From: a virus
Direction: 5' to 3' (one strand)
Virus record (IMG/VR): IMGVR_UViG_3300035092_000017
Location: 1 to 56,646 of that record
DNA length: 56,646 nucleotides
The notes below the pieces were generated by a model. That model made no database searches, was not told the origin of the DNA, and worked only from the letters and a program-made list of their open reading frames with translations. Both the position numbers and the translations under genes were made by a program. Position 1 is the stretch's first letter. Each line of letters begins with the position of its first letter. Below are positions 19,177-45,980 of the stretch, piece by piece.

Positions 19177-20142
19177 TCAGGCTGTGGCCATCTCCTTGAG
19201 TTTCACTGTCGTTTTATCGATTACTTCCTTGAGTCGGTCACTGTCCAGATCCCCAAGGTTTTCGGTGTCAGCAATTATCGCCTTGTCCCAAAGGAACTGT
19301 TCAAGTTTCGGCTTTAATGCCTGCCAGTCGGCGGGCTTCATATCCTTAGTCCATCCGTGAATGCCAACGGTGAGCGTACGGAGCTTCGAGAGCAGTTCGC
19401 CCTTGCCGTTGCCATTCGCCTGCACGCCAGGACCGCCCGGAGCAGCACACCACGCGGCTAATCGTTCGCCATGGTGGATAGTGGTCATTTCATTGTTCGG
19501 CATCGCTTGGCGCAAGGCTGGGTGCGAGCATTTAGTCAATCGGAACGTGTGATCCGGCATGACCTCACCATGACAAGTAGTCTCAAAAATGAAGTCTTCC
19601 GCCTGAATTGGCGATGTGTGTTCATCCTTCACAATCTCGGTCCGCCCTTGAGCGTTCTTGCCTTGGCGCGTCTTGAACTTCGCCCGTAAGCAAATGATCC
19701 ACGGCAACGGCGATTGGAGAAGCTTCAGCATAAACTTCTGGTGTTCCAGCTTCGGTTCTCTCCAGTTGTGCAACCCAGACTTGCCGCTTTTCTGTTCGCG
19801 CTCGGTTGCCATATCGATCACCCCTCCCAAACCTTCCCATTCGTGACTACCTGAATCCAATACGCCGACCTGTGCGCCGGAGTTTTCGACAATCTTAACG
19901 GCTTCAATGTAGCGCGACGGCGAGAATGGCTCTCGCAATTCCAAGACATCATAGCCGCCCTGGATGACATCGGCGTAAAGACTGCCGCGCCCGCTCTCGG
20001 TATCGATCATCACAATCTTGCCAGTCGGCCCGACAAAGCCACGCGCCAGCAACAGCGCCGACATTGTTTTTCCGCATCCGCTCTCCGAATAGAAGCAGAT
20101 GATCGGCTTTACGCCTGTTCGAGATGCTTTATGTATTTCCAT
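19177..20142 (-). CDS. RecA-like AAA ATPase, putative Sak4-type recombinase
   Basis: Encodes 321 aa. Walker A is SGCGKTMSALLLA near residue 21; a Walker B-like strand is GAQVGVLDSGSHEWEG near residue 89. Between them is KIVMIDTESGRGSLY, as in AAA_24/Sak4 proteins, the RecA-core single-strand annealing family of phages. The C-terminal 90 residues are a helical tail (LEQFLWDKAIIAD). Paired with the RecE-like nuclease gene 2 bp downstream. I cannot separate Sak4 from other AAA_24 ATPases without a search. Confidence 0.75.
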   Translation of the reverse strand: MEIHKASRTGVKPIICFYSESGCGKTMSALLLARGFVGPTGKIVMIDTESGRGSLYADVIQGGYDVLELREPFSPSRYIEAVKIVENSGAQVGVLDSGSHEWEGLGGVIDMATEREQKSGKSGLHNWREPKLEHQKFMLKLLQSPLPWIICLRAKFKTRQGKNAQGRTEIVKDEHTSPIQAEDFIFETTCHGEVMPDHTFRLTKCSHPALRQAMPNNEMTTIHHGERLAAWCAAPGGPGVQANGNGKGELLSKLRTLTVGIHGWTKDMKPADWQALKPKLEQFLWDKAIIADTENLGDLDSDRLKEVIDKTTVKLKEMATA

Positions 20143-24203: not shown

Positions 24204-24401
24204 TTAATACTGGATGCCTCGCGCATGCCATTTCGGCCATTGATTGCCTTTTTTGTTTCGCTTTTCGGCAAGCTTCCAGGCGATTTCTCTGGCTGTTTCA
24301 ACGGGGGCAGATTGTAAGACAAACCAAGGCGACATCGCATCATCTTTTTGCATAATGGCCGTCATCGCAACTTCTTTGCCTTCAGGTAGTGATTCGTTCA
24401 T
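24204..24401 (-). CDS. unknown 65-aa early protein
   Basis: ATG 24401 overlaps the previous stop (TATGA), which decides the start. Contains PWFVLQSAPVETAREIAWKL, a short strand plus a helix. The C-terminal end is basic. No family recognised. Confidence 0.6.
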   Translation of the reverse strand: MNESLPEGKEVAMTAIMQKDDAMSPWFVLQSAPVETAREIAWKLAEKRNKKGNQWPKWHARGIQY

Positions 24402-24667
24402 AACATTTTGCATGTTGTTTCCAGCCCAGTGTCTTCGTTCCACAGGATGCAATAGCGCATGTCCTTGAGATATTCTCTTACGTGGCCACGGACCACCGGT
24501 TTGAGTTGAGTTAGAATCCCATCGGGCATTTTCTCCACTAACTCATTTAGCTTGGGTTTGCCCAGTCGGATCTGCCCGCTGGCTACCGTTGCGGTCATCG
24601 TGCCAATCGGTTCGACCTGGTTATGATGGAATAGCTTCCATCGAAGCGTAAGAAGGATTGTCATCAT
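24398..24667 (-). CDS. unknown 89-aa early protein
   Basis: Begins MMTILLTLRWKLFHHNQVEP; the middle is KLNELVEKMPDGILTQLKPV. Two adjacent ATGs (24667, 24664) overlap the upstream stop. Probably a small alpha/beta fold. Function unknown. Confidence 0.62.
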   Translation of the reverse strand: MMTILLTLRWKLFHHNQVEPIGTMTATVASGQIRLGKPKLNELVEKMPDGILTQLKPVVRGHVREYLKDMRYCILWNEDTGLETTCKML

Positions 24668-25077
24668 ATTGTTTCCTCCTTGGGGTTAATTCGTTCCATC
24701 GCCAAAGCGTAAGCAAATTCTTTGACTCGCTGTTCAAATGCTTCTGGGTCCGCGTTGATATACTTCAACGCACCGCTGGCGCTCATGTTGGCCAGCAATG
24801 GATCGCCAACCTTGCCAGTTAAACCGCGTTGAGCACACCATTGCGCGGCTCCGTCGTATTCCGTTAGCAACTCAGCAGGGAGTTGATCGCCGTCGTAGTA
24901 ACTTTTGGGGTATGGCAAAGCGAAACTAAACTTTTCGATCGTCCGATTCAGGTAATCGAGTTGCGCCGAAAAGATGTTGGCATCATCATACCGGCAATCG
25001 TCCAAAGCTCGTTCTAGGCAAAGCTTTTTGAAGTCGCGCCTGAAAATCAGTTGTTGCAATCTAACTCGATTAGTCAT
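24664..25077 (-). CDS. unknown 137-aa early protein
   Basis: Helical, with RRDFKKLCLERALDDCRYDD and AQLDYLNRTIEKFSFALPYP. Second gene of the leftward early operon, overlapping the first by 8 bp. Function unknown. Confidence 0.65.
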   Translation of the reverse strand: MTNRVRLQQLIFRRDFKKLCLERALDDCRYDDANIFSAQLDYLNRTIEKFSFALPYPKSYYDGDQLPAELLTEYDGAAQWCAQRGLTGKVGDPLLANMSASGALKYINADPEAFEQRVKEFAYALAMERINPKEETI

Positions 25078-25363
25078 TTTTCACCTGCCCTTCCTGTTTG
25101 GCATCAATGGCGACTCCGAAGCTTTCAATTGTGCGCGGTTCAAGGGCTTCGGCAGCCAGGCGGCGCATTGCGCGAATCGGACTGCCGAAAGTTTGTCTTG
25201 CAACTAACGGAGCGTTCCCATGTAGGCAGTTCTCCGTAATCTCTAATATCTGCGTCAGAGCAATCTTGAATCGGTCGCGCTCACCAATTAGACCAACAGC
25301 CGCGGCGTATGACTTAACACAGGTCTCAATAAACTCTGCGTTTGCCTCATTTGTTCCACTCAT
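25070..25363 (-). CDS. first gene of the leftward early operon, 97 aa
   Basis: Helical protein (NAEFIETCVKSYAAAVGLIG, ERDRFKIALTQILEITENCL). Preceded by the structured leader 25382-25442 and an AAAGG Shine-Dalgarno about 9 nt upstream of its ATG. Its position makes it the most highly expressed early gene. Function unknown. Confidence 0.65.
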   Translation of the reverse strand: MSGTNEANAEFIETCVKSYAAAVGLIGERDRFKIALTQILEITENCLHGNAPLVARQTFGSPIRAMRRLAAEALEPRTIESFGVAIDAKQEGQVKND

Positions 25364-25381
25364 ACCATTAACCTTTCACAA

Positions 25382-25442
25382 ATCCCCGGACCTGTGCGGA
25401 GGTTAAGCCGTCGCGTGATTGCTCAACGCGAAGTCCGGGGAT
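25382..25442 (-). promoter_or_regulatory. structured 5' leader, copy A (covaries with copy B)
   Basis: ATCCCCGGAC (25382-25391) pairs with GTCCGGGGAT (25433-25442), 10 bp. Inside are CGCGT/ACGCG and ACCT/AGGT hairpins (leftward strand), so the leader is a branched structure just before the ribosome site of the 25363 gene. The equivalent stem at 27363-27435 keeps its pairing while three of eight base pairs differ on both sides, which is direct evidence that the RNA fold matters. Confidence 0.75.
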
Positions 25443-25526
25443 AAATAAGTTTCGGTAAACCGCTTTCACACCTGATACAAACCATATCGGCGCCCAAATG
25501 GAAAGACATTATCGCTCATGCCGAAA

Positions 25527-25640
25527 GATAGAAGCACACCTAATACAAAACTATTAGATTCGCTTGTACGGTTAGCTAAACCGTTGACATCATTCCCGGA
25601 TTGTGTTTTAGTTCTCTCGTGCAAGTGAAACCGCACAGCA
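25527..25640 (+). repeat. 114-bp perfect direct repeat, copy 1 (promoter/operator module)
   Basis: Bases 25527-25640 are identical to 27512-27625. The unit holds two dyads (CTAATA/TATTAG, and a pseudo-palindrome around ACGGTTAGCTAAACCGT) followed by a promoter. The identity drops downstream but the leader structure is conserved. Perfect identity over 114 bp implies recent duplication, gene conversion or strong selection. Confidence 0.95.
25584..25612 (+). promoter_or_regulatory. sigma70-type promoter, copy 1
   Basis: TTGACA (25584-25589, consensus -35), a 17-bp spacer and TTTAGT (25607-25612, 4 of 6 at -10). The dyad ACGGTTAGCTAAACCGT overlaps the -35 and would make a natural operator. Transcription would begin near 25619 and read into the 25732 gene. 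Confidence 0.7.
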
Positions 25641-25719
25641 TTAAACAAAATCAATTCGCTCCGGGCCGGCGGTCTGCTCGATTCTCCATCGGCCAGGTTT
25701 CACCCGTCGCGCCCGGAGC
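25625..25719 (+). ncRNA. structured 5' leader with predicted pseudoknot, copy 1
   Basis: GCTCCGGGC (25658-25666) pairs with GCCCGGAGC (25711-25719). GTGAAACC (25625-25632) lies upstream and is complementary to GGTTTCAC (25696-25703) inside the loop, so the two helices form a pseudoknot. The 3' arm is followed by GGAG 5 nt before ATG 25732, so folding could control translation. The stem covaries with copy 2 (27644-27706). This is a cis-acting leader, not a separate RNA. Confidence 0.65.
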
Positions 25720-25731
25720 TTTGGAGAAAAT

Positions 25732-26037
25732 ATGACTGATACAAAACATATCGGATCCGGAGTGAATGATCCTGAATGGCATGACAATACTCCGACTCCG
25801 TTTGAAATTGCTTATTACGCGCTAAATCATGCGGTGAAAGATAGAGTAGTCCACAGCCAAGAAGCAGATGATAGCAAAACTGCAATCAAAGCTTTGTTGG
25901 CCGAACGCGATCAACTCCGGGCCGCGCTCAAGACGGCAGTTCGGGTCATGCAAGATCACAACATCGACGAAGCAAGGGCCGGCGAGTTTGATCAGTTCAC
26001 GGACGCTCTCAACCTCGTTCCGGGCGTCACTCGCTAA
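25732..26037 (+). CDS. unknown 101-aa rightward early protein
   Basis: Start follows GGAG in the pseudoknot leader. Contains PTPFEIAYYALNHAVKDRVV and a helix AERDQLRAALKTAVRVMQDH, like many small phage early proteins. It is the only gene of its transcript, which ends at the terminator 26088-26116. Function unknown; tight control of a monocistronic early gene suggests a regulator or host-takeover factor. Confidence 0.65.
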   Translation: MTDTKHIGSGVNDPEWHDNTPTPFEIAYYALNHAVKDRVVHSQEADDSKTAIKALLAERDQLRAALKTAVRVMQDHNIDEARAGEFDQFTDALNLVPGVTR

Positions 26038-26087
26038 AGCGTTAGGCGAACGTGATGAAGCCAGAGAGCAACGAGACCGATTACAAA

Positions 26088-26116
26088 CCTCACCTTGATC
26101 TCTTGGTGGGGTTTTT
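26088..26116 (+). terminator. Rho-independent terminator of the 25732 transcript
   Basis: CCTCACC (26088-26094) and GGTGGGG (26105-26111) pair (one U-G), with a 10-nt loop and five T at 26112-26116. It lies 51 bp after the stop codon. Confidence 0.8.
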
Positions 26117-26134
26117 GATTTGGGTCTGTACGCT

Positions 26135-26169
26135 AAAAACCCGCCGGCCAGCTTGCGCCAACCGACGGG
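26135..26169 (-). terminator. Rho-independent terminator of the 27345-26200 operon
   Basis: On the leftward strand CCCGTCGG and CCGGCGGG form a stem (one mismatch) around a 14-nt loop with a GCGCAAGC inner hairpin, then TTTTT. It stands 31 bp past the stop of the 26200 gene and is back to back with the rightward terminator, insulating the two units. Confidence 0.8.
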
Positions 26170-26199
26170 CCGTAACAGACCGATGACTAATCGGCCGGT

Positions 26200-26535
26200 T
26201 TAAACCATTGCTGAAACGATTCGCTGTTTTGATTGGCCCATCGCAATCTTTTCAAATCGCTTACAAAGCTTCGCTGCCTGCTCCCGCGTTAACCCCTGTC
26301 CGCCATCCTGAATTTTTACGCTAATGTTAATTAACGTGTACCGTTTCTCCGGTCCCCAATTCGGAGTGTGCCCCTTGTACCAGCTATCAGGTTGACTCAT
26401 AAGACGATGTAGATCATTGCGATAATGACCGCGTGGCTTATCAGGAATACTAGCGGTGCCAGTCTTGCAATCGTGTAGTGGAAATCTCAATGAGATAACC
26501 TTACCGCAATCAGGGCAAAGTGCGATTTTGCTCAT
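26200..26535 (-). CDS. zinc-site protein, 111 aa
   Basis: The N-terminal CPDCGKVISLRFPLHDC is a compact zinc site; the remainder has LTREQAAKLCKRFEKIAMGQ, a helical C-terminus. Last gene before the leftward terminator. Function unknown. Confidence 0.65.
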   Translation of the reverse strand: MSKIALCPDCGKVISLRFPLHDCKTGTASIPDKPRGHYRNDLHRLMSQPDSWYKGHTPNWGPEKRYTLINISVKIQDGGQGLTREQAAKLCKRFEKIAMGQSKQRIVSAMV

Positions 26536-26765
26536 AACTTTTTGGTTGAATCAAGCCATCTGTTGCACGCGGTATTTAAACGCTCGGCTGTCCAGTGCGC
26601 GATTTCCTTTGCGTCTTTCAAATTTAGCTTGCGTTTGCCTTTCGTGAAATCGTACTGGCTTTTTGCCTTTCGCCTCTCCATCTCACCAGACGCAATTTCT
26701 CGCATCCGGTCACGCGCGGCGAGAGCAGCGCAAAATAGCTCGTGGGATTCATCAGGGTAATTCAT
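26532..26765 (-). CDS. unknown 77-aa protein
   Basis: Start set at ATG 26765 (MNYPDESHELFCAALAARDR), the first that fits the preceding stop. Highly charged helical composition (KRKLNLKDAKEIAHWTAERL). Overlaps the next gene by 4 bp. Possibly nucleic-acid binding; no family recognised. Confidence 0.6.
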   Translation of the reverse strand: MNYPDESHELFCAALAARDRMREIASGEMERRKAKSQYDFTKGKRKLNLKDAKEIAHWTAERLNTACNRWLDSTKKL

Positions 26766-26766
26766 A

Positions 26767-27024
26767 TCACCAGGTCGCAGTAAACCGAAGTTGGCTCGTA
26801 AATTTTGAACACGGCCCATCGCTATAGCGGCGAAAATGGCAAAGGACTTTGCGCCCACTATTGCGCAGTAGTCCGCCGATTGTCCGGTATTGTTTCTCCT
26901 TAACGAAGTCCCCATTCATGCCATTGATGAAAAGCAATGTAACATGCGGATCATTTGGATCGGAATTTCGCAACGCATATTCAGCCGACTTGCGAAGGTT
27001 TCGAGGGTAGTACGTCTTAGTCAT
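26767..27024 (-). CDS. unknown 85-aa protein
   Basis: Small alpha/beta protein with NDPHVTLLFINGMNGDFVKE and a basic C-terminal half. It lies 27 bp from the upstream gene. No function recognised. Confidence 0.6.
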   Translation of the reverse strand: MTKTYYPRNLRKSAEYALRNSDPNDPHVTLLFINGMNGDFVKEKQYRTIGGLLRNSGRKVLCHFRRYSDGPCSKFTSQLRFTATW

Positions 27025-27051
27025 AATCTGTTACTTTCGTTCACGCTGCGT

Positions 27052-27345
27052 TTATGTACAACAACCACAACACGGAGCATCTTCGCAGCGTCCGCGCGAA
27101 TTTTGGGTGAAGCTATGGCCCGATGATAATCGAACCACTGTTAAGCCTTGCCGCGCTAATCTCCGATCACTGGCCAGCGTGCCAGGTTCAAGACCTGCAG
27201 CTTCATCTTCGTCATAGGTCGATTCATCCCGACAGCCGGCATGTTCCGCCCGCCCCTTGCCGTAGAAGTTGATTGTGTCCCCGCGTTGAATTGGCTCTCC
27301 GCAAGCCGCGCATTTGCCAGGATACTTAGCGATCATTGTCTTCAT
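27052..27345 (-). CDS. small zinc-finger protein, 97 aa
   Basis: Residues 6-40 match a recurring phage zinc module: AKYPGKCAACGEPIQRGDTI, then FYGKGRAEHAGC, a four-ligand site. The C-terminus is also Cys-rich (CEDAPCCGCC). First gene of the second leftward early unit, right after leader copy B. Function unknown. Confidence 0.72.
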   Translation of the reverse strand: MKTMIAKYPGKCAACGEPIQRGDTINFYGKGRAEHAGCRDESTYDEDEAAGLEPGTLASDRRLARQGLTVVRLSSGHSFTQNSRGRCEDAPCCGCCT

Positions 27346-27362
27346 TGCTTATCACTTTCAAA

Positions 27363-27435
27363 TCCCCGTTGCGCTGTGCGCAGTGTGCCAAGGAAAGCAC
27401 AAGCGTACGGCCGCAAGCCATACTCACAACGGGGA
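27363..27435 (-). promoter_or_regulatory. structured 5' leader, copy B (covaries with copy A)
   Basis: CCCCGTTG (27364-27371) pairs with CAACGGGG (27427-27434), extended by a T-A pair. Inside, the leftward strand can form three hairpins (TATGGC/GCCGTA, GTGC/GCAC, TGCGC/GCGCA). Same flanks as copy A (ATTTG after the stem, AAACTTATTT before it) and the same position in front of the first gene of a leftward unit. Confidence 0.75.
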
Positions 27436-27511
27436 AATAAGTTTTACTGCGCACACCTACACAATCGATCCAACCGTCCAAATGGTAAAGGAAATTATCA
27501 CCTTCCTGTAC

Positions 27512-27625
27512 GATAGAAGCACACCTAATACAAAACTATTAGATTCGCTTGTACGGTTAGCTAAACCGTTGACATCATTCCCGGATTGTGTTTTAGTTCT
27601 CTCGTGCAAGTGAAACCGCACAGCA
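27512..27625 (+). repeat. 114-bp perfect direct repeat, copy 2
   Basis: Identical to 25527-25640 (offset 1985 bp). Carries the same dyads and promoter. Sequences on both sides are also related but diverged, so the whole divergent control region was duplicated along with, or before, its flanking genes. Confidence 0.95.
27569..27597 (+). promoter_or_regulatory. sigma70-type promoter, copy 2
   Basis: TTGACA (27569-27574), 17-bp spacer, TTTAGT (27592-27597), identical to copy 1, with the same overlapping dyad. Drives the 27767 and probably the 28113-28528 genes, subject to the terminator at 28050. Confidence 0.7.
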
Positions 27626-27706
27626 ATAAATCAAAATCAATTCGCTCCGGCTCGGCGGGTCTGCTCGATTCTCCAGACAGCAGGTTTCACCCCGTCGGGT
27701 CGGAGC
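27610..27706 (+). ncRNA. structured 5' leader with predicted pseudoknot, copy 2
   Basis: GCTCCGGCTC (27644-27653) pairs with GGGTCGGAGC (27697-27706). GTGAAACC (27610-27617) can pair with GGTTTCAC (27683-27690). Against copy 1, the lower stem changes G-C to C-G at one pair, with G-U and U-G at two others, keeping the helix. Here no start codon follows the GGAG at once; the gene begins about 60 bp later, after a 7-bp dyad (AGCCCAA/TTGGGCT). Confidence 0.65.
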
Positions 27707-27766
27707 TTTGGAGAAATACTAGCACAGCCCAAATTGGGCTTCACCATTTGACCTATAAACCGTCTT

Positions 27767-28027
27767 ATGAAACGATTTCAATTCACTTGCTCGGCTTTTC
27801 AGGATGACAGCCTTGTCAGTATGCCGGGATTTTCCCATCGTTCGCAACCGTTCAAGGTCCGGGTCTGCTGGTATCCATTTGAAGAATGGTTCATCAAAGC
27901 TTGGGTTTATGCTCGTAATCGCCGCCATGCCGTAAAACAGCTAGAGCGTAACGGCATAGCAAATGTCCGCGACCTTGACGAAGGAAAACTCGATAAGAAT
28001 TGCCCAAAGGCATTTGCAAATCTCTAA
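27767..28027 (+). CDS. unknown 86-aa protein
   Basis: Contains CWYPFEEWFIKAWVYARNRR then HAVKQLERNGIANVRDLDEG, Trp/Tyr and charge-rich, like small phage early regulators. No clear Shine-Dalgarno; the upstream segment holds a dyad. Ends 22 bp before a strong terminator. Function unknown. Confidence 0.6.
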   Translation: MKRFQFTCSAFQDDSLVSMPGFSHRSQPFKVRVCWYPFEEWFIKAWVYARNRRHAVKQLERNGIANVRDLDEGKLDKNCPKAFANL

Positions 28028-28049
28028 TACGCTAAAGTGTGACATTCAC

Positions 28050-28077
28050 CCCGTGGTTTCATCGCCACGGGTTTTTT
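28050..28077 (+). terminator. Rho-independent terminator after the 27767 gene
   Basis: CCCGTGG (28050-28056), 8-nt loop, CCACGGG (28065-28071), then six T. A textbook structure. Confidence 0.88.
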
Positions 28078-28112
28078 GTTGACCGGATAGGCTGATTACG
28101 GGACATTCCCGC

Positions 28113-28421
28113 GTGCCTTTTGACACTGAGACTGCCACGCAAGCCGCGTTTGACTCGCACGCAGAGGATAGCAGGCGCCGTCATCCTCATCCTCTCCAGC
28201 AATGTGCCGATATGCAGGAACGACTTCGTGAGATTGTCCTGAACCCTGAAACTGAACCTGGGAAGGCAGCGCAATGCGCGTCCGCGTGGGAGAGATTAGA
28301 AGCTCGCAAGGCTGTGCTCAAGGGCCGGCCCGCGAACACCTCACAAAGCATTCGCGAACCCAAGCAACCCAAGTCCAAGAAGCCAGTCGTTCAACCGCTG
28401 GATAACCTGCCCGAAGCATGA
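28113..28421 (+). CDS. unknown 102-aa charged protein
   Basis: Starts with GTG at 28113 (MPFDTETATQAAFDSHAEDS). Helical and charged (ADMQERLREIVLN, AWERLEARKAVLKG), with a Pro/Lys/Gln tail. Followed by a coupled membrane peptide. A DNA-binding or small-terminase-like role cannot be excluded; no motif supports one. Confidence 0.55.
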   Translation: MPFDTETATQAAFDSHAEDSRRRHPHPLQQCADMQERLREIVLNPETEPGKAAQCASAWERLEARKAVLKGRPANTSQSIREPKQPKSKKPVVQPLDNLPEA

Positions 28422-28528
28422 AGAATATAGACTGGTCTGAAATATGCTTGTGCGCCATGGTTTACGGCACACCGATTGTCGTAGCGATTGTGCTTTTCTG
28501 GCTTCTGTCTTCTCGCTTACCACGATAA
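28418..28528 (+). CDS. 36-aa single-pass membrane peptide
   Basis: Reads MKNIDWSEICLCAMVYGTPI then a hydrophobic stretch (VVAIVLFWLLSS) and a basic end (RLPR). The start overlaps the previous stop (ATGA). Function unknown; may be a small inner-membrane toxin or regulator. Confidence 0.55.
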   Translation: MKNIDWSEICLCAMVYGTPIVVAIVLFWLLSSRLPR

Positions 28529-28534
28529 GCCCAC

Positions 28535-28694
28535 CTAATACAACCCCACTAGATGTATTAGCAAAACCTTAGCGCACAAGATCCGATATATTTAATCGGG
28601 GGATTTGACTTTGGAAGTGGCGGGCTGCACTTAGGCGTTTCACGGTTAGCTAATCCGTTACTCCGTTTGTTCCCAGCCGCAGCCCATAACCCGC
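28535..28694 (+). promoter_or_regulatory. decayed third copy of the control module (non-coding 28529-28867)
   Basis: Shares with the 114-bp repeats CACCTAATACA, now in a longer dyad (CTAATACA 28535-28542 / TGTATTAG 28554-28561), and CACGGTTAGCTAATCCGTTA (28641-28660). The TTGACA has become TTACTC, so the promoter is probably dead. A GGGCTGC/GCAGCCC stem (28622-28628 / 28679-28685) encloses the operator-like dyad. The remainder of the 339-bp gap has GAATGCTT twice and no gene I can support. Confidence 0.5.
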
Positions 28695-28867
28695 TGCTAC
28701 TATCATGCTGCCATCCTGCCGGCCAGTGTCAAGCCAGAAGGAAAAGGAATGCTTAAGAATGCTTCCAGCCCAGACCGTCCCGGCACCCTGGCCATGGCAC
28801 CATCCTAAGCACCCCCGGCTGTTTCAGTCATACCCCTCTTTATAGACAGGCTATTTTTGTGGAAAAA

Positions 28868-29104
28868 CTACACTATCTTCCGAATAACCCAGTCCGACTG
28901 ATTTGTTTTGGATTGGCTCCGGGTTAGCTTTGTTCCGATTATAGCTTGGTTTGTTAGCTGGTGCCAAACCGGATAATCAAAGCTCGGGGTTCCAAGTTTA
29001 AAGAAAGCGAAATCTCCGGCCTTTACGGTTTCTCCGTTTACTAGTTTTCGATAGCCATCGGGGATCGCTACTTCTCTGATTTTGAATACAGCTTTAATTT
29101 TCAT
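28868..29104 (-). CDS. unknown 78-aa protein
   Basis: Small beta-rich product with DGYRKLVNGETVKAGDFAFF and PSFDYPVWHQLTNQAIIGTK, a pattern I recognise from short phage proteins with a repeated ligand-binding-like strand. Last gene of the leftward replication block. Function unknown. Confidence 0.62.
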   Translation of the reverse strand: MKIKAVFKIREVAIPDGYRKLVNGETVKAGDFAFFKLGTPSFDYPVWHQLTNQAIIGTKLTRSQSKTNQSDWVIRKIV

Positions 29105-29116
29105 GTGTAAAACCAG

Positions 29117-29413
29117 TTACTGCGAAGCTCTATGGCGTGATAATGCGTCTTTGCCCATCTGAGCCATGTTAATTTTCACAGCAAGGGGTTTTCGTTCATA
29201 GGATTGCTTTCCTGACCATTCGGCGGCGGTTAGTCCATCTTTGGGGAGTAATCCGGGAAAGGATTTAGAGATTCGTAGGCGAACTTGTTTTTCGATCGTG
29301 CATTTGCGTTCCTTGTCCTGGGGATGAGTTCCACGCTGGATGGGGTCCAGTGGACAGGAGTTTACGGAGCAGTGATCGAAACGAGGGCAAAGTTGGTAAG
29401 GTTCAGGGTTCAT
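29117..29413 (-). CDS. Cys-rich 98-aa protein
   Basis: Has LCPRFDHCSVNSCPLDP near the N-terminus (a four-Cys cluster) and CTIEKQVRLRISKSFPG, then a basic C-terminal half. A family of phage proteins with this opening and a 'C..F..CSVN.CPLD' core exists; no function known to me. Confidence 0.65.
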   Translation of the reverse strand: MNPEPYQLCPRFDHCSVNSCPLDPIQRGTHPQDKERKCTIEKQVRLRISKSFPGLLPKDGLTAAEWSGKQSYERKPLAVKINMAQMGKDALSRHRASQ

Positions 29414-29448
29414 AGGGCTTTAGCGAATTGGAATGGGGTCATAGGGTT

Positions 29449-29835
29449 TTAAGGTTTGGTGTCACAAGGTTCACCGCAGGCATTGCATGAGAGCCAGTGG
29501 GTTCCATGAAGTCCACCTTCGATTGAGAAAGTGGCACTACAGCATTTAGAGCTTTTGTTTCCCAGGAGCAGATTCAATGGCCTTACTGAATCCTTTCCTT
29601 CCGGTTTAGGGTCGAGTTGGTTGGCTTCACGGTCGATAGCAGCAGCGGCAGAACGAGCCAATCTTGCATCTGGCGCTTCGTCGTGCAAAAATCTTCCAGA
29701 GCGAACTATTTCAGCCGCCCACCTGAGAGCATCGGCTTGGATTTGGCGGATGATTTGGATACGGGGCTTTGGGTTAATGATGGTCCAGGGGACTTGAGTC
29801 TCCCAATCCTCGGCAGGTTTCAGGTTGGCTGGCAT
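29449..29835 (-). CDS. unknown 128-aa protein with a C-terminal zinc site; paralogue of the 41480 gene
   Basis: The helical region IRQIQADALRWAAEIV followed by REANQLDPKPEG matches IRKIQANALRWATQEV and EQANQLDPQNEK of the 41480 gene. A C-terminal zinc-ribbon follows (SKCCSATFS ... LSCNACGEPC) that the other lacks. Two copies on opposite sides of the genome show intragenomic duplication. Function unknown. Confidence 0.65.
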   Translation of the reverse strand: MPANLKPAEDWETQVPWTIINPKPRIQIIRQIQADALRWAAEIVRSGRFLHDEAPDARLARSAAAAIDREANQLDPKPEGKDSVRPLNLLLGNKSSKCCSATFSIEGGLHGTHWLSCNACGEPCDTKP

Positions 29836-30083
29836 GGAACAATACGGGTTGAGTTGATGCGGAGTTCAATTTCACGGTTAAGGTACCATTGGGCTTTTTG
29901 AAGGTCTTCGAGTGGATTTCCTTTTTGCTCTGCTCTAGCTATGTATTTAACTACGTTGCCAAGATTAAAGTTCAAGGACCAGTCTTCGATAACCTCAATG
30001 ACTTCTATTTTACCATGGTTGTAGTGGGCTGGGTGATCGACTTTGTTCAGGGAACAACTCTGATTGGTCAGGTTGGATGACAT
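29820..30083 (-). CDS. DUF3310-like phage protein
   Basis: The 87-aa product has VDHPAHYNHGKIEVIEVIED, WSLNFNLGNVVKYIARAEQK and DLQKAQWYLNREIE, the three conserved blocks of DUF3310, a widespread phage family often beside replication genes and sometimes annotated as a nucleotide kinase. Biochemical role unproven. Its start overlaps another small frame by 74 bp. Confidence 0.85.
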   Translation of the reverse strand: MSSNLTNQSCSLNKVDHPAHYNHGKIEVIEVIEDWSLNFNLGNVVKYIARAEQKGNPLEDLQKAQWYLNREIELRINSTRIVPCQPT

Positions 30084-30198
30084 AGGCGGTGTAATGGGCT
30101 GGTTGTTTGTGGATGAGGTTGGTGATGTGTTGATCAGGACGGAGGGATTCGCAGAAGGTGAGTAGTTCAGAGCCGATCAGGGTGTGGATGGTGGTCAT
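30010..30198 (-). CDS. possible 62-aa gene coupled to the initiator gene
   Basis: ATG 30198 overlaps the initiator stop (ATGA). The first 40 residues look natural (MTTIHTLIGSELLTFCESLR), but the last part overlaps the DUF3310 start in another frame and reads Ser/Pro-rich. Probably expressed by coupling; could be chance. Confidence 0.45.
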   Translation of the reverse strand: MTTIHTLIGSELLTFCESLRPDQHITNLIHKQPAHYTAYVIQPDQSELFPEQSRSPSPLQPW

Positions 30199-30932
30199 GG
30201 GGTGCCGTCCAGGGCTTTACGTTGAGAATCGGTCAGCAGGTCGGATTTTCCGATGGACACCAAATAGCGAGCGCCTTCGAGTAATTCTTCCGGCGTGATG
30301 GTGCCGTTTGATACCGGATAAGAAGGCGGTGGTTTGGGTGGTGGTTTTGACGTATCTATTCCCATTCGCCGCGCGAATTCGGCGGCTTGGTCGAGTAGCT
30401 TTTGTTTGAGAGCGCCTGAAGCGGCATCAGCCTGTCGGATTGTGATCCAGTAAAGCTGGTAGTCGGAGGGCCCCTTACCCCCCCGAACTGAACGAACTGC
30501 TCCCCCCTCCGGTTGGGGGATCACTGATGGATCAGGGGGATAGGGGTTCAGAGCTTGAACCCTTTTCCGGTCATGGTGAACCCTTTTAGCGTTCACGGTG
30601 AACCCTTTTATTGCCGAAATGGGTTCATCCTGAACCGTTTTATCGCCTGAATAGGGTTCATGGTGAACCGTTTTATGGACTATTTGGATGCGGTTGGTGT
30701 TTCCCCGGCCTTTGGCTGGGATGATGATTATTTTGCCCTGTTCTTTGAGCCAGTGGATGCACCTTTTAACGGTCGATCTGGAACAGAAAGTTCGGTCGGA
30801 AATGGTGTTTATGGCGGGCCATGTTTCCCCGGCGTCGTTGGCCATGTCTGCGAGGACTACAAAAACGAACTTTTGAGCCGAAACTTGGAAGTCCATATCG
30901 TCCCAAGCAGCCTTTAGGTGGTGCCAACTCAT
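30195..30932 (-). CDS. HTH replication-initiator-like protein (lambda O-like arrangement)
   Basis: Encodes 245 aa. The N-terminal 75 residues are an HTH_36-type winged helix: SAQKFVFVVLADMANDAGET, then FCSRSTVKRCIHWLKEQGKI with a wing IIIPAKGRGNTNRIQIV. A repeat-encoded linker follows, encoded by the iteron-like DNA (30545-30675). The C-terminal half includes a Pro-rich run and LYWITIRQADAASGALKQKL. Phage initiators of this layout bind repeats inside their own gene and load a helicase. The helicase loader or helicase gene was not found, so host helicase use is likely. Confidence 0.7.
   Translation of the reverse strand: MSWHHLKAAWDDMDFQVSAQKFVFVVLADMANDAGETWPAINTISDRTFCSRSTVKRCIHWLKEQGKIIIIPAKGRGNTNRIQIVHKTVHHEPYSGDKTVQDEPISAIKGFTVNAKRVHHDRKRVQALNPYPPDPSVIPQPEGGAVRSVRGGKGPSDYQLYWITIRQADAASGALKQKLLDQAAEFARRMGIDTSKPPPKPPPSYPVSNGTITPEELLEGARYLVSIGKSDLLTDSQRKALDGTP
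30545..30675. repeat. five phased iteron-like repeats: candidate replication origin
   Basis: The half-site TGAACC recurs at 30556, 30577, 30599, 30631 and 30664, spaced 21, 22, 32 and 33 bp, close to two and three turns of the helix. Most carry an inverted GGTTCA partner (GGTTCA-N3-TGAACC at the last two), and all are followed by CTTTT or GTTTTA. They lie inside the initiator-like gene, as in lambda ori. Unwinding would be expected in the T-rich spacers. Confidence 0.7.
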
Positions 30933-31783: not shown

Positions 31784-32173
31784 TCAGACGCAGATTTTTG
31801 GTGGGGTCGGAATTTCGCCCTGCTTTGGTCGCCAAAGATGCAGCACACATTCGTGGACGTTCACGTAATCTTTTTTGGCGGGATGCAATTGCATCACAAC
31901 TTCGTCGTCATCCCAAAACAGTTCCTTGATGAAACACATTTCCTCCCACTTCGGGATGCGGCGGCGTTTGAACACCGGATCATAAGCGTGAACCGAGACA
32001 TGCTCCCATTCACCGGCTTGGTCTGGACTATCCAGTAATCCATCAGTGGCTATGATGTTGAGTAGCGTGCCGTTGTGTTTAATTTGGAATGCGCCATACG
32101 TTGCTCCATCAGGAGATATGTACGGCGGTTGATGCCCACGAAATTTATCGAGATGGTGCCAGTCTTTTTTCAT
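31784..32173 (-). CDS. DUF7694-like phage protein
   Basis: Encodes 129 aa. The block RRRIPKWEEMCFIKELFWDD, then VMQLHPAKKDYVNVHECVLH ending LWRPKQGEIPTPP matches a family seen in many phages (DUF7694 in my recollection). Function unknown. It is monocistronic or co-transcribed with the two small genes upstream. Confidence 0.75.
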   Translation of the reverse strand: MKKDWHHLDKFRGHQPPYISPDGATYGAFQIKHNGTLLNIIATDGLLDSPDQAGEWEHVSVHAYDPVFKRRRIPKWEEMCFIKELFWDDDEVVMQLHPAKKDYVNVHECVLHLWRPKQGEIPTPPKICV

Positions 32174-32206
32174 ACCCCCGCCGTCAAGGATTTTGTTGGA
32201 GAAGAT

Positions 32207-32410
32207 TCAAAACAACTCCTTTTGTTTCTCGATCTTGGGTTCAGTGATTCCGTTATATTCCCGCACCCAGGCGTCGGCTTCGGCCTCCGCGATTTTTAAG
32301 GCGCTGTCGGTGATCGGGCCAGCGCCACAGAGGATTGAAATTCGTTCCTGAATTCTATGCTCTCGTTCCGCGAACTGCTGGGAGAGGGTTAGGCGGGGAT
32401 TAGTTAGCAT
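32207..32410 (-). CDS. unknown 67-aa protein
   Basis: Start at ATG 32410 (MLTNPRLTLSQQFAEREHRI), overlapping the upstream gene by 11 bp. Helical and acidic, with LKIAEAEADAWVREYNGITE. Function unknown. Confidence 0.6.
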   Translation of the reverse strand: MLTNPRLTLSQQFAEREHRIQERISILCGAGPITDSALKIAEAEADAWVREYNGITEPKIEKQKELF

Positions 32411-32586: not shown

Positions 32587-33021
32587 ATGGCAATAACTTT
32601 TTATAAAAAAAGAATGTTGACAACCTATGGGATTAGTTCACAATCGCGGCAGATGAGATTCAGTCAGGCTGATTTAGATGCTTACATGGCTCGCAGGCGA
32701 GTCTCGAATCCAAACGCGCTAGTAGCCGACCCAACGCCCGCAGGTCAGGAATGGAAGCTACAAGAACAGATCCGAGAAGAATGCGGACGGCGAGGGTGGG
32801 TGGTCTTGACCGGCTCGATGGCCAATCGCACAAGTCGTACGTTAGGCGAGCCGGATTTTGTGATTGCGGCTGACCGGGGCAGGACATTTTTTATTGAGGC
32901 GAAAACCAAAGTCGGCAAGCTGTCACTGGAACAGCAGGCGATGTTCGCTCATCTGACGAAATTGGGCCATATCCCGGCAGTCGTTCGTTCGCTGGATGAA
33001 TTCCTGAAAGTGATCACATGA
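32587..33021 (+). CDS. VRR-NUC domain nuclease
   Basis: The C-terminal half has LTGSMANRTSRTLGEPDFVI then FFIEAKTKVGKLSLEQQAMF, the PD-(D/E)XK VRR-NUC core (E/D in GEPDF, E-x-K in IEAK), a DNA-repair and junction-processing nuclease family. Start uncertain: ATG 32587 (144 aa) or ATG 32653 (122 aa), which follows a candidate promoter TTGACA (32617-32622), 16-bp spacer, CACAAT (32639-32644). Probable role in Holliday-junction or DNA-end processing. Confidence 0.8.
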   Translation: MAITFYKKRMLTTYGISSQSRQMRFSQADLDAYMARRRVSNPNALVADPTPAGQEWKLQEQIREECGRRGWVVLTGSMANRTSRTLGEPDFVIAADRGRTFFIEAKTKVGKLSLEQQAMFAHLTKLGHIPAVVRSLDEFLKVIT

Positions 33022-33191
33022 CCCACCTGCAATTTTTCATCTGCCTGAATATGATTGGCGTTCCGATAATGACTTTTTTGATTGCAGGAGATGAGCCGGA
33101 TACTGCTGAGGCTATTGGCATGATAGTGCTCTTGTCGGTATTTGTGAACATTATCGCATTTGGTATTCGACTGGCCATCATCTGGGGATAA
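33018..33191 (+). CDS. two-segment membrane protein, 57 aa (first of a tandem pair)
   Basis: Reads MTHLQFFICLNMIGVPIMTF, a first membrane segment, then an acidic turn (AGDEPDTAE), then a second membrane segment around residues 35-57 (MIVLLSVFVNIIAF), ending GIRLAIIWG. The start overlaps the previous stop. Its neighbour 33194-33373 is a paralogue. Two-pass small proteins in tandem are typical of holin/antiholin pairs or superinfection-exclusion proteins. Confidence 0.65.
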   Translation: MTHLQFFICLNMIGVPIMTFLIAGDEPDTAEAIGMIVLLSVFVNIIAFGIRLAIIWG

Positions 33192-33193
33192 AC

Positions 33194-33373
33194 ATGAGTC
33201 ACTTGCAATTTTTAATCTCAACAAACATGATCGTGGTGCCAATTCTGGTTTTATCCGAGACGATGACTCTGGGAGATGAACTATGGCGCAAGGTTTGGGA
33301 TGCCATCGTTTTATTTTTAGTAGTCAACTTCATCGCCTTTGGCATTCGCTTGGCGGTGATCTGGAGCAGATAA
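33194..33373 (+). CDS. two-segment membrane protein, 59 aa (second of a tandem pair)
   Basis: Paralogue of the preceding gene: MSHLQF, NMIVVPILVL and NFIAFGIRLAVIWSR line up with MTHLQF, NMIGVPIMTF and NIIAFGIRLAIIWG. The turn differs (ETMTLGDELWRKVWD). Two proteins of one origin and slightly different charge are what a holin/antiholin pair looks like; no proof here. Confidence 0.65.
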   Translation: MSHLQFLISTNMIVVPILVLSETMTLGDELWRKVWDAIVLFLVVNFIAFGIRLAVIWSR

Positions 33374-33374
33374 C

Positions 33375-33866
33375 TTGAAGATTGAATTCACAGCCTCAGT
33401 GGACGAACTTGAGCGAATGGCAAAGAAAAATCTTTCCGGCTGGATATGCAAGCTGTTAGGATGCGGTGAAACGAAAAAACGGATGGTTCGTTTCGGCTGG
33501 GCCGTCGAACCGCCAAAACTGAAAGGTAAAATACGTATGCCCCTAGAGTTGACCGTGACAAATGAAGAACAGGTAAAGGTTCATCTGGCTCCTGTGACTG
33601 CTGCTGGTAAGCCCACCAAGCTTGATGGCAAACCGGCTTGGACGGTGGTCTCCGGGCCGGCCAAGGTGGTTCCTGCCGATGATGGTTTGTCCGCGGATTT
33701 GGTCAGCGATGACACTGACCTGAGCGACACAACCTTCATGGTGGATGCTGATGCCGACCTCGGCAGCGGAGTTGAGGATATTCAGGATACTATCCTCCTG
33801 CATGTCAGCCATGCAAACGCTAAGAATCTCGGATTGAGCGCCGACGCCCCGGTGTTGAAGCCGTAA
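33375..33866 (+). CDS. 163-aa protein, Ig-like C-terminal domain; internal start possible
   Basis: TTG at 33375 follows the previous stop. Residues 1-54 are basic (LSGWICKLLGCGETKKRMVR). From MPLELTVTNEEQVKVHLAPV (ATG 33537, preceded by AAAGG) the protein is a beta sandwich with GKPTKLDGKPAWTVVSGP and LVSDDTDLSDTTFMVDADAD, an Ig-like pattern found in phage decoration proteins. The second part may be translated separately. Either a fused gene or two nested products. Confidence 0.6.
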   Translation: MKIEFTASVDELERMAKKNLSGWICKLLGCGETKKRMVRFGWAVEPPKLKGKIRMPLELTVTNEEQVKVHLAPVTAAGKPTKLDGKPAWTVVSGPAKVVPADDGLSADLVSDDTDLSDTTFMVDADADLGSGVEDIQDTILLHVSHANAKNLGLSADAPVLKP

Positions 33867-33885
33867 CACTGTTAGGCCACCGTCG

Positions 33886-33939
33886 CGCCTGGAAGTCTGT
33901 GGCGGGTTCTTTGTCTCTCTCGCATAATACGAGCAGGCG
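33886..33939 (+). promoter_or_regulatory. hairpin-rich spacer upstream of the 34063 gene
   Basis: CGCCTG (33886-33891) pairs with CAGGCG (33934-33939), with an inner CTCG/CGAG hairpin (loop CATAATA). No gene is seen between 33867 and 34062. May be a leader of the 34063 gene or a weak terminator. Confidence 0.35.
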
Positions 33940-34062
33940 GGCGCACGTGGAAACGAATGATGTGCGTTCGCCTTTTAGAATTTTCCTCCGTGGTGTGGTA
34001 GTGAACCGACTGTTGCAACGATCATGCTTCAAGCCATGATAAATGAACGGAGGATTTACTTT

Positions 34063-35955: not shown

Positions 35956-36255
35956 TTATCCGGTTTTGTCGTGGACTTCTTTGCTGAGTTGGGTGGTATC
36001 TCCTTTAATTTGGGCAATGGCGTCCGTGTGCTCATTAAGAGCTTTTTGCACCGAAGCATTGTCTGCGGCAAACAAATTCGAGAAGAACTTGCCTAACATG
36101 TTAATGAGCGTGCCAGCAATGGCCAGCCAGAGATTGATTTGATGCAGTTCATCTCCTGTGCCGACTTGGGCAAGAGATGTTAGCAATGTCGCATCGCGTA
36201 ACCCTGATCCAAGCGTTTCAAGCGAACCGCCCAATGTAGTTCTCCATGATTTCAC
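35956..36255 (-). CDS. holin-like protein, 99 aa
   Basis: Begins MKSWRTTLGGSLETLGSGLR, the SW+TTLGG opening common in small phage holins, then an internal hydrophobic segment (QINLWLAIAGTLINMLGKFF) and a coiled-coil tail (VQKALNEHTDAIAQIKGDTT). The opening motif is repeated in the neighbouring receiver-domain protein. Likely inner-membrane pore or regulator of lysis timing. Confidence 0.7.
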   Translation of the reverse strand: MKSWRTTLGGSLETLGSGLRDATLLTSLAQVGTGDELHQINLWLAIAGTLINMLGKFFSNLFAADNASVQKALNEHTDAIAQIKGDTTQLSKEVHDKTG

Positions 36256-36818
36256 GATTTCTTTTTCAGCAGTGCTTTCATCGCCCGTTCATCCATGCAA
36301 AACGCCAAACTAACCCCAGCCGCGACCACCGCAATGCTGGTGCTGTCCACGTGCTTAGTGCAAGACCAGACGCCCAAGGCAGACACGATCATGCCGCCAA
36401 GTGTGGTTCTCCATGACGGTCTTAGGTTGGCTCCCTTCTTAAAAATGGCTTCAGTGACATCCATAAAATTGAGCATGTAGCGCATGTCGTTGGACGTGAA
36501 CGGTTTGGGAAAAAGAAATACCGCTCCGCAATCCATTACTTGAGCTTTCTTCCGCTCGTCGGAATAGCCGGAGATTATGGCTACCGGAATGTGGGTGTAG
36601 TTGTCCTTGAGCCAGCGCACTAACTCGACTCCATCCATGTCGGGAACCTTCAGGTCCACGCAGGCGAAACGAAAATGGCTGGAATGGCGCAAGATTCTTT
36701 GGGCATCGGAGGCGCTTTTGGCGTGCTCCACATGATAGCCTTGTTCCTCGACCACTCGTCGCAGTAACTCGGCATCGTGTAGATTGTCTTCGATGATAAG
36801 TATATTTTTCCCGTTCAT
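36252..36818 (-). CDS. CheY-like receiver domain fused to a holin-like membrane domain
   Basis: Encodes 188 aa from ATG 36818; an ATG at 36848 would add 10 residues. Residues 5-120 are a full response-regulator receiver: acidic pair E10/D11 (ILIIEDN), phospho-acceptor D55 (FACVDLKVPDMDGVELV), S83 in VAIISGYS and K105 in FLFPKPF, i.e. every catalytic residue of CheY. From residue 134 it carries PSWRTTLGGMIVSALGVW, the same motif as the adjacent holin-like gene, then a second hydrophobic segment (SIAVVAAGVSLAF) and a basic tail. I know of no described holin with a receiver domain. It suggests lysis gated by phosphorylation from a host kinase, or conversely a phage decoy of host signalling. Confidence 0.85.
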   Translation of the reverse strand: MNGKNILIIEDNLHDAELLRRVVEEQGYHVEHAKSASDAQRILRHSSHFRFACVDLKVPDMDGVELVRWLKDNYTHIPVAIISGYSDERKKAQVMDCGAVFLFPKPFTSNDMRYMLNFMDVTEAIFKKGANLRPSWRTTLGGMIVSALGVWSCTKHVDSTSIAVVAAGVSLAFCMDERAMKALLKKKS

Positions 36819-36855
36819 CGAATCGTACCCCCATGTTTTCGGTCCCATTCATTTA

Positions 36856-43716: not shown

Positions 43717-44180
43717 AATTATCCCAATCCGATATTGATCGGTTTTTTCAAAAAATCAGGAAGACCGATAGCTGCTGGCTTTGGACTGGCGCACTTTATG
43801 GCGCTGGAAGATATGGTCAATTTTGGGCTAAGGGCGACATGCACTTGGCTCATAGGATTTCTTGGATGATTCATTTTCAAGAGATTCCAAAAGGGTTTTT
43901 CGTATGCCACAAGTGCGATGTGAAGCAATGCGTTAATCCTGATCATCTATTTGTTGGATCTCCAGCCGATAATATTGATGACATGGTTAGGAAAAAAAGA
44001 TGCAATCCGCCTATTGGTGAACGAAGCGGAACAGCTAAGTTGACAACGGCTCAAGTTCTGGAAATTCGCAGAAAATATGCTGGCGGAAATGTCACGCAGA
44101 AGGAATTGGGAATTTTGTACGGGGTGGCTGACACGGCAATTTGTAGAATCATAACAGGTAGGCGCTGGGCGCATATATGA
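43698..44180 (+). CDS. HNH endonuclease within the glycan operon
   Basis: Encodes 160 aa (ATG 43698, overlapping GT9 by 19 bp; ATG 43707 is an alternative). RFFQKIRKTDSCWLWTGALY, HKCDVKQCVNPDHLFVGSPA and a C-terminal HTH (QKELGILYGVADTAICRIIT) match one unit of the tandem HNH gene at 12082. Same strand as the operon and coupled at its end (ATGA), so it is tolerated there; no flanking repeats as strong as for the other two. Confidence 0.85.
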   Translation: MAKMEVKLSQSDIDRFFQKIRKTDSCWLWTGALYGAGRYGQFWAKGDMHLAHRISWMIHFQEIPKGFFVCHKCDVKQCVNPDHLFVGSPADNIDDMVRKKRCNPPIGERSGTAKLTTAQVLEIRRKYAGGNVTQKELGILYGVADTAICRIITGRRWAHI

Positions 44181-45151
44181 ACGAACCTGGTTACGTGGTT
44201 CATAACGGTCAATTGGCTAAGGCGTGGCTTGAAAAAATAGGCCGTGTGGCCCTGTTCCCGGCTGTCTCTAGCCAGATACCCGCCGTGCAGATCAATCCAA
44301 AGGCGCTTCATCCATTCGGTTACAACGGCAGCTTGATTCGGTTTGAGGGTCGTTTGCTGTTGGCTTACCGCTATCACGTCGATAACAAACTGAGCACGAA
44401 ATTAGCGGTGGCGGAACTGGACGATAATTTCAACGTCATCCGAAATTCTAATCTGGAGATTGCAGGCAATCATCAATCGAGCGAAGATCCGCGTTTATTC
44501 ATCTATCAAGGAAAGCTTTGGATGAGTTACGTCTGTTCGACATGGCCATCGCAGAATCCGGTCTGTGTCACCAAGTACGGGATGTTGAATCAGATCAGCA
44601 ACGGTTGGGGCATTGTGCCGCAGACCGAGAAGCAGCCGGCCTATGGGAAGAATGACGGCACCAGTCTGGAAAAGAATTTCATTTTCTGGGAGCATTTTAG
44701 TGGGGAACTTTATTGCATTCACCGCAGTTTGCCTGAACAGGTGATCATGGGGCGGGATTGCGAATTGAAATCACCAGCACCGCGTTGGGCTTGGGGCGAG
44801 ATTCGCGGTGGTTGTTCCCCGTTGCCGTGGCAAGGCAAACTGTTGCGCTTCTTCCATTCCTCGCTGGATTTCGAGCAGCCACCGGCCCGCAGGCGTTACT
44901 TCATGGGAGCAGCTTTGATGGAACCAGATGCACCGTTCAGGACATTGGCGGTGAGTAAGAAACCTATTTGCGTGGGAAGTGAAATTGATGACCTGACGGT
45001 GGAACAGCGAGGGGAAGCGTTGAGCTACAAGGAGAAGGTCATCTTCCCAATGGGAGCGATCATGTTGGGAGACGGATTCGTGGTATCGGCAGGCTGCAAC
45101 GATAGCTCAGTGCTGCTGTTGAAGATTGGACCGAAGGATCTCAACTTATGA
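44177..45151 (+). CDS. GH130-like five-bladed beta-propeller (glycosidase/phosphorylase-type)
   Basis: Encodes 324 aa. Repeated propeller phrases: NGSLIRFEGRLLLAYRYHVD, SSEDPRLFIYQGKLWMSYVC, EKNFIFWEHFSGELYCIHRS, IRGGCSPLPWQGKLLRFFHS, VIFPMGAIMLGDGFVVSAGC. These match the propeller of GH130 mannoside phosphorylases and related glycosidases; EDPRLF is typical of the active-site blade. In a phage it might trim or rebuild a glycan on the virion, or degrade host glycan. Activity needs testing. Confidence 0.7.
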   Translation: MNEPGYVVHNGQLAKAWLEKIGRVALFPAVSSQIPAVQINPKALHPFGYNGSLIRFEGRLLLAYRYHVDNKLSTKLAVAELDDNFNVIRNSNLEIAGNHQSSEDPRLFIYQGKLWMSYVCSTWPSQNPVCVTKYGMLNQISNGWGIVPQTEKQPAYGKNDGTSLEKNFIFWEHFSGELYCIHRSLPEQVIMGRDCELKSPAPRWAWGEIRGGCSPLPWQGKLLRFFHSSLDFEQPPARRRYFMGAALMEPDAPFRTLAVSKKPICVGSEIDDLTVEQRGEALSYKEKVIFPMGAIMLGDGFVVSAGCNDSSVLLLKIGPKDLNL

Positions 45152-45371: not shown

Positions 45372-45980
45372 ATGACCCAACTCTTTCAACAGATCGAATC
45401 GCTCATCCCCAAGCTGCATGGGTGGGCGACGGTGAAGAAATGCCAGATGCTTGCCGCCTCAGTGATCGCGCTGCAACCTGAAACCAGTATAATCATCGGA
45501 GTCTGGGGAGGCAGAGATACGTTCGCTCTAGGATTGGCGCACAAGTTCATCGGCAAAGGTCGAGTGATGGCGATTGATCCATGGGCTTCGGTGGCAAGTG
45601 CTCAAGGCCAAACCACCAATGCGGATAAACAATGGTGGGCCAACATTGATCACGAATTAGTCTATAACGATTTCCTGAAGAATCGCACGGAACTCGGATT
45701 GAATGATACCGTGTTGGTTTACCGGATGATTTCGGATTATGCCGATGTGCCGAAACGGATCGATGGCGTACTGGTCGTGGATGGCAACCACGGGCCGAAC
45801 GCTATTACTGATGTGGATCGATTCGTACCGAGTGTGGCTACTGGAGCAGTGGTGTTATTAGACGATAAAAATTGGTCCGGGGGGTACGTAGCCAAGGCGA
45901 TTGAGAAGATCAAGACGATGGGATTCCGGTCACTTTATGAGGTCGATACCAGTGAAATGTTTCAGAGGATTTCAGGATGA
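45372..45980 (+). CDS. class I SAM-dependent methyltransferase
   Basis: Start at ATG 45372; a TTG at 45366 is possible. SIIIGVWGGRDTFALGLAHK is motif I (glycine loop), VMAIDPWASVASAQGQ is motif II (acidic Asp binding the ribose), VLVVDGNHGPNAITDVDRFV and VVLLDDKNWSGGYV follow as in Methyltransf_24 enzymes. In a glycan operon it most likely O-methylates a sugar; other targets are possible. Confidence 0.8.
   Translation: MTQLFQQIESLIPKLHGWATVKKCQMLAASVIALQPETSIIIGVWGGRDTFALGLAHKFIGKGRVMAIDPWASVASAQGQTTNADKQWWANIDHELVYNDFLKNRTELGLNDTVLVYRMISDYADVPKRIDGVLVVDGNHGPNAITDVDRFVPSVATGAVVLLDDKNWSGGYVAKAIEKIKTMGFRSLYEVDTSEMFQRISG

Follow-up and report, generated by a model that had tools for sequence, protein, structure and literature searches.

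The uncultivated virus record IMGVR_UViG_3300035092_000017 (all 56,646 nucleotides analysed here, referred to as the window) contains two divergent intergenic control regions, A and B. We read these as portable cassettes whose structured leader RNAs, lying next to the Shine-Dalgarno (SD) sequence, would set the translation of the next gene. For this reading as a whole we estimate a probability of about 0.5, with much higher confidence in the duplication and in the RNA stems. There is support at the sequence level for the duplication, the promoter motif, the compensated stems and the difference in downstream genes between relatives. Phages swap genes constantly, and the question is how a newcomer becomes regulated at once. 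If the leaders can gate any gene that follows them they would be a plug-in control element, and this would account for intergenic stretches outlasting the genes between them in one related phage pair.

Two copies of one divergent control region

Relatives for comparison were 50 viral loci found through a recombination-module protein (19177-20142), and L133, from virus record G003, which was found through the left-leader pattern.

25364-25731, no strand assigned: control region A, a divergent intergenic gap (80.7% identity over 368 nt to L133)
27346-27766, no strand assigned: control region B, a paralogue of A by sequence comparison
25527-25640, plus strand: perfect 114-bp repeat, copy A, with the rightward promoter, dyads and 5' leader hairpin (100% by BLAST)
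27512-27625, plus strand: perfect 114-bp repeat, copy B (100% by BLAST)
25584-25612, plus strand: rightward promoter A, TTGACA-N17-TTTAGT (TTGACA 25584-25589, TTTAGT 25607-25612)
27569-27597, plus strand: rightward promoter B, TTGACA-N17-TTTAGT, a copy of promoter A
28527-28660, plus strand: a third set of the operator-like repeats, degenerate and more widely spaced (82% of 28 nt; one mismatch in the dyad)

A preliminary description of this DNA had held that the two gaps are copies of one regulatory region with a perfect 114-bp repeat, and this is borne out. A and B are paralogous and share the repeat, the ungapped match extending to 124 bp at 98%. The promoter and the two dyads which it placed there (CTAATA-CAAAAC-TATTAG and ACGGTT-AGCTA-AACCGT) are likewise present. 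The promoter has 10 of the 12 consensus letters, and promoter-like sites of this quality (spacer 16-18, at least 10/12 letters) occur only eight times in the whole window, once in each gap. The automated promoter scan did not list it because its -10 lacks an A at position 2. The second dyad has a third copy, with one mismatch, at 28642-28658. A 19-nt sequence to the left of the core (25472-25490) is also repeated, at 95%, in the first codons of the right gene of A (25736-25754).

The whole had also been read as being under coordinate control, with one factor acting on two operons, and here the comparison points elsewhere. A and B agree at 57.6% over the left leader and at 60.3% over the adjoining stretch, then at 100% over the 114-bp core and 84.0% over the right leader; between A and L133 the same four segments give 85.4, 60.9, 74.4 and 87.2%. 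Because A and B are identical only in the core, while A and L133 agree there at 74.4% and in the right leader at 87.2%, A and B are best read as old paralogues, and the perfect core as the probable result of recent gene conversion between them, not of tight constraint. L133 keeps the promoter (as TTGACG-N17-TTTAAT) and the right leader, and both dyads are broken in it, so the dyads are not conserved among homologous control regions as would be expected of a regulon with a common operator. The proteins scanned, a subset of the open reading frames (ORFs), included none recognisable as XRE or RHH. A shared trans-acting factor is in our judgement rather unlikely.

Structured leaders ending at the ribosome site

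25619-25729, plus strand: right leader A (5' hairpin 25619-25636, main hairpin 25658-25719, SD 25723-25726)
27604-27716, plus strand: right leader B (5' hairpin 27604-27621, main hairpin 27644-27706)
25369-25443, minus strand: left leader A (outer stem 25431-25442 with 25382-25393; two inner hairpins; SD the complement of 25372-25379)
27349-27445, minus strand: left leader B (outer stem 27425-27435 with 27363-27373)
25682-25688, plus strand: apical loop TTCTCCA of right leader A, complementary to the SD stretch 25722-25728 (TGGAGAA)
27669-27675, plus strand: equivalent apical loop TTCTCCA of right leader B, complementary to TGGAGAA
25400-25406, minus strand: loop TTAACCT of left leader A, complementary to AGGTTAA at the SD (25368-25374); invariant

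The leaders are very probably real RNA structures, and this is best seen in the leftward leader. Leftward leaders are structured as well as rightward ones: folding compared with shuffled sequences gives z-scores of -3.8 (A), -4.4 (B) and -3.2 (L004, from virus record G002) on the left and -3.5 (A), -3.4 (B) and -1.9 (L133) on the right, so that five of the six leaders tested lie at -3.2 to -4.4 and the sixth at -1.9. Across A, L133 and L004, a sample of three sequences of which two are close, the left leader has 25 named pairs, seven of them changed on both sides, and 98.7% of cells are paired; none of 500 shuffles paired as well, and slid controls gave 0-1. Left leader B is different in sequence from that of A and similar in layout, and covariance model R1 gives no match to it.

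For the rightward leaders, the stems proposed in the preliminary description are present as written, and all 15 stem pairs compared by hand are kept in A, B and L133. The covariation claimed for them amounts by hand count to one double change, two wobbles and one compensated insertion, the last being an extra G-C pair in right leader B coupled to the loss of a bulge. The match GTGAAACC/GGTTTCAC, put forward as an internal pseudoknot, is found in both copies and in L133; it is invariant in the three sequences and therefore yields no covariation. Six of its eight bases lie within a bulge of the predicted main hairpin, and of the eight stretches returned by a pattern scan for it only L133 is a leader. 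Rfam covariance models matched nowhere in the window at gathering score, nor within 25300-27800 when hits with E up to 1 were allowed, so the leaders fit no known Rfam riboswitch or leader family; nor does the window contain a tRNA.

Two other accounts of these repeats bear on whether they act as RNA. The inverted repeats could function as DNA, being operators or recombination hot spots whose paired changes come from template switching within a palindrome. It is known that inverted repeats can be mended by template switching; there are operator-like repeats close by, of which 28527-28660 holds a third copy, and the cassettes are found at gene-swap borders. However, the changed pairs include wobbles (A-U to G-U, U-G to U-A, G-C to G-U) which keep RNA but not DNA pairing, and the repeats have a fixed position relative to the SD. 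The 150 helix positions contain 15 G-T and no A-C, a count biased by the choice of helices on the sense strand. We regard a DNA role as improbable. It might also be supposed that the right leader encodes a leader peptide or an attenuator, as the frame from the GTG at 25619 is open through leader A and its stop overlaps the ATG of the gene. No T run follows the outer hairpins, however, and none of them is listed among the predicted terminators. Through insertions and deletions the stem falls in a different phase in each of A, B and L133, so that neither the peptide nor its overlap is kept; the leader peptide was rejected, and we give this account hardly any weight.

What is new here is that the leader fold is completed a few bases ahead of the SD and includes a loop complementary to it, which may make the leaders a translational gate, although the statistics are modest. 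Dinucleotide shuffling gives p 0.026, 0.009 and 0.042 for the right TTCTCCA/TGGAGAA match in A, B and L133, and p 0.066 (A) and 0.021 (L133, one base longer) for the left. Right leaders have a complement of 7-9 nt, and two of the three A-type left leaders have one of 7-8 nt. As these matches are non-independent across relatives and do not covary, we put the loop-SD pseudoknot forward as a proposal only, and rate the chance that the leaders act as an SD gate at a little short of even.

In the reading which we favour, the paralogous regions A and B would be portable divergent cassettes in the mosaic, non-structural region of the phage. Each would produce a rightward and a leftward transcript, both starting with a leader of ~75-115 nt, if the predicted transcription starts are correct. 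The leader would form a long, GC-rich hairpin that stops a few bases short of the SD, with a short SD complement in its apical or internal loop, and a pseudoknot between loop and SD could then hide the ribosome site. In the right leader, the 5' hairpin loop GTGAAA could also pair with the bulge TTTCAC. By these means the leader may set, and perhaps switch, translation of whichever gene follows, the trigger possibly being an ion, a protein or the state of the host.

The main rival is that the hairpins are constitutive 5' protectors or insulators, which shield the end of the mRNA and keep the SD clear, with no switch and no pairing between loop and SD. Strong outer stems of variable sequence stand just before the SD in every leader, the genes behind the leaders are unrelated, and the SD complements of two left leaders are weak (p 0.41 in L004, 0.36 in B), all of which would suit such a role. 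It leaves unexplained the conservation of the loop TTCTCCA among varying neighbours in A, B and L133, as well as the invariant GTGAAA/TTTCAC match. We think passive protection distinctly less than an even bet.

Leaders in front of different genes

25070-25363, minus strand: first gene of left operon A, 97 aa, no family (ORF list, family scan)
25732-26037, plus strand: right gene A, 101 aa, no family above cut-off (ORF list, family scan)
27052-27345, minus strand: first gene of left operon B, 97 aa, cysteine-rich (phrog_5664 and phrog_1581)
27767-28027, plus strand: 86-aa ORF behind right leader B, set apart from the leader SD, no family (ORF list, family scan)
27731-27766, plus strand: probable trace of gene replacement behind right leader B, 36 nt (94% match to the stretch after the L133 right gene)

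The gaps are bounded by ORFs starting leftward at 25363 and 27345 and rightward at 25732 and 27767. ORFs were called in this analysis, and some stretches counted as noncoding may hide small genes. Leaders are present in three of the four virus records compared, namely the window (A and B), G003 (L133, one full control region) and G002 (L004), which has the left leader alone. The fourth, G001 (L003), has the recombination genes in common with them but lacks the control region. The L133 left leader precedes a homologue of window gene 24398-24667 (91% amino-acid identity), that of L004 a homologue of window gene 26767-27024, and the L133 right leader a DUF2786/DUF7168 gene. The description of these regions as a regulatory cassette is therefore upheld, since L133 and L004 place it before other genes. 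An SD and start codon directly follow the leader in A right, A left, B left, both L133 leaders and L004 left. Over 25070-30010, the window bases matched by G003 number 901 of 1556 in noncoding sequence and only 224 of 3385 in coding sequence, and 40 nt around a start (27016-27055) are identical in G003 before unrelated genes. We suggest that the leaders are a portable control for whatever gene lands behind them.

Several observations weigh against the favoured reading as a whole. Only three virus records carry any leader, and in L004 (G002) the excess of intergenic over coding matches is lost (121/1556 noncoding against 356/3385 coding). Models R1 and R2, run on 65 of 157 sources (the window and L001-L156), found the known leaders and one weak match (E 0.97), which we took for chance. 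At the SD of right leader B a start codon is missing, and the next ORF begins ~50 nt beyond it. The original gene there appears to be gone, because the 36 nt before the new ORF match the stretch following the L133 right gene. Two of the seven leaders (L133 left and L004 left) fold slightly better on the antisense strand. Among the right stems of A, B and L133 there is just the one double change besides the two wobbles. The left SD complement does not vary, so that no covariation stands behind the pseudoknots, and to this must be added the weak loop-SD matches of L004 left and B left. That the leaders form a new class of phage leader RNA, divergent in sequence and conserved in architecture, whose loop masks the SD by a pseudoknot and which serves as a portable gate on both arms of a divergent promoter, is in our view doubtful; if true, a freshly acquired gene would come at once under the same translational switch.

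Wider searches added little. A DNA similarity search of 50,697 phage records and an exact search for the dyad-promoter core in viral contigs returned nothing. Three leader pattern scans gave only the L133 and L004 contigs and chance places inside unrelated sequence, and looser matching within the fetched loci only chance places besides these two. Within the window R1 finds one copy and R2 two. In 387 genomes of the G004 phylum R2 found none and R1 two weak places, both in one genome and resembling a dispersed hairpin repeat. No leader like B left lies upstream of homologues of gene 27052-27345 in the 13 loci viewed of 80 kept. The closest genome match is a Lentisphaerae metagenome-assembled genome, at 65% in one protein.

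Short stretches with 95-100% identity to G003 were seen at 27016-27055, 32167-32207, 33017-33055, 33333-33376 and 33861-33976; several sit at gene starts or between genes, and the genes of the region differ. A scan for hairpins at gene starts, which used loose ORF calls, mixes in terminators and chance hits and beyond the leaders served as a lead only. In L133 a hairpin (CCGTCGCAC/GTGCGACGG) at 4734-4776, before gene 4777-4986, has a 3' arm that enters the SD, and GTGCGACGG is also found upstream of gene 4255-4626, there as a direct repeat. Elsewhere in the window, tandem near-repeats of the GGTGAACC-CTTTTA type (30560-30681), possibly origin iterons, lie inside the gene 30195-30932, which has replication-initiator matches, and GC skew changes sign near them. 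A response-regulator receiver domain (PF00072, E 1.5e-19) is encoded at 36252-36848, and genes like glycosyltransferases and glycoside hydrolase 130 at 992-2083, 44177-45151 and 45977-46981.

Comparison with known systems

We found no report of these leaders in the literature searched, which does not show that none is in print. The put sites of phage HK022 are structured RNAs in the leaders of two divergent early operons, where they act on RNA polymerase. The leaders described here are also structured RNAs on two divergent operons, downstream of divergent promoters as are putL and putR, and could be cis-acting antitermination RNAs of that kind. The present leaders, however, reach the SD itself, and the units behind the right ones appear to be short, each a single gene with a terminator-like hairpin close behind it (28050-28071, from the predicted terminator list, and 26086-26118, noted by eye). 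Read-through would then be of little use, which makes antitermination less likely. There were no matches among 4227 Rfam families, the presence of put among them not having been checked. We consider antitermination quite improbable.

T4-type phages reportedly have promoter-terminator cassettes known as PeSLs, to go by titles of Arbiol (2010) and Comeau (2014), which we take to be an early promoter joined to a terminator stem-loop. A and B resemble them in being regulatory cassettes of small size, conserved among the swapped genes of a mosaic region, and against G003 the cassette is kept while flanking genes differ; with G002 a single leader is shared, and there the excess of intergenic over coding matches fails. 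Unlike PeSLs, the stem-loops here follow the promoter, touch the SD, have no T run or listed terminator, and are present on both arms of a divergent region.

In the report on the SAS and ESAS elements of Cluster K mycobacteriophages (PMC3203893), a 13-bp motif is shared by many copies, with little support for ESAS RNA hairpins. In both systems, genes of different families in the non-structural half of the genome have an SD and start immediately preceded by inverted repeats. The stems here covary, however, and have no common SD motif, the SD stretches TTTGGAGAAA, GTGAAAGG and TTTGAAAGTG being different. A phage leader pseudoknot with a role in translational control is also known from T4 gene 32, where, according to PMC3014915, an upstream pseudoknot nucleates binding of the gene's own product. 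The pseudoknot proposed here differs in that it would cover the SD itself, and the gene downstream of it varies.

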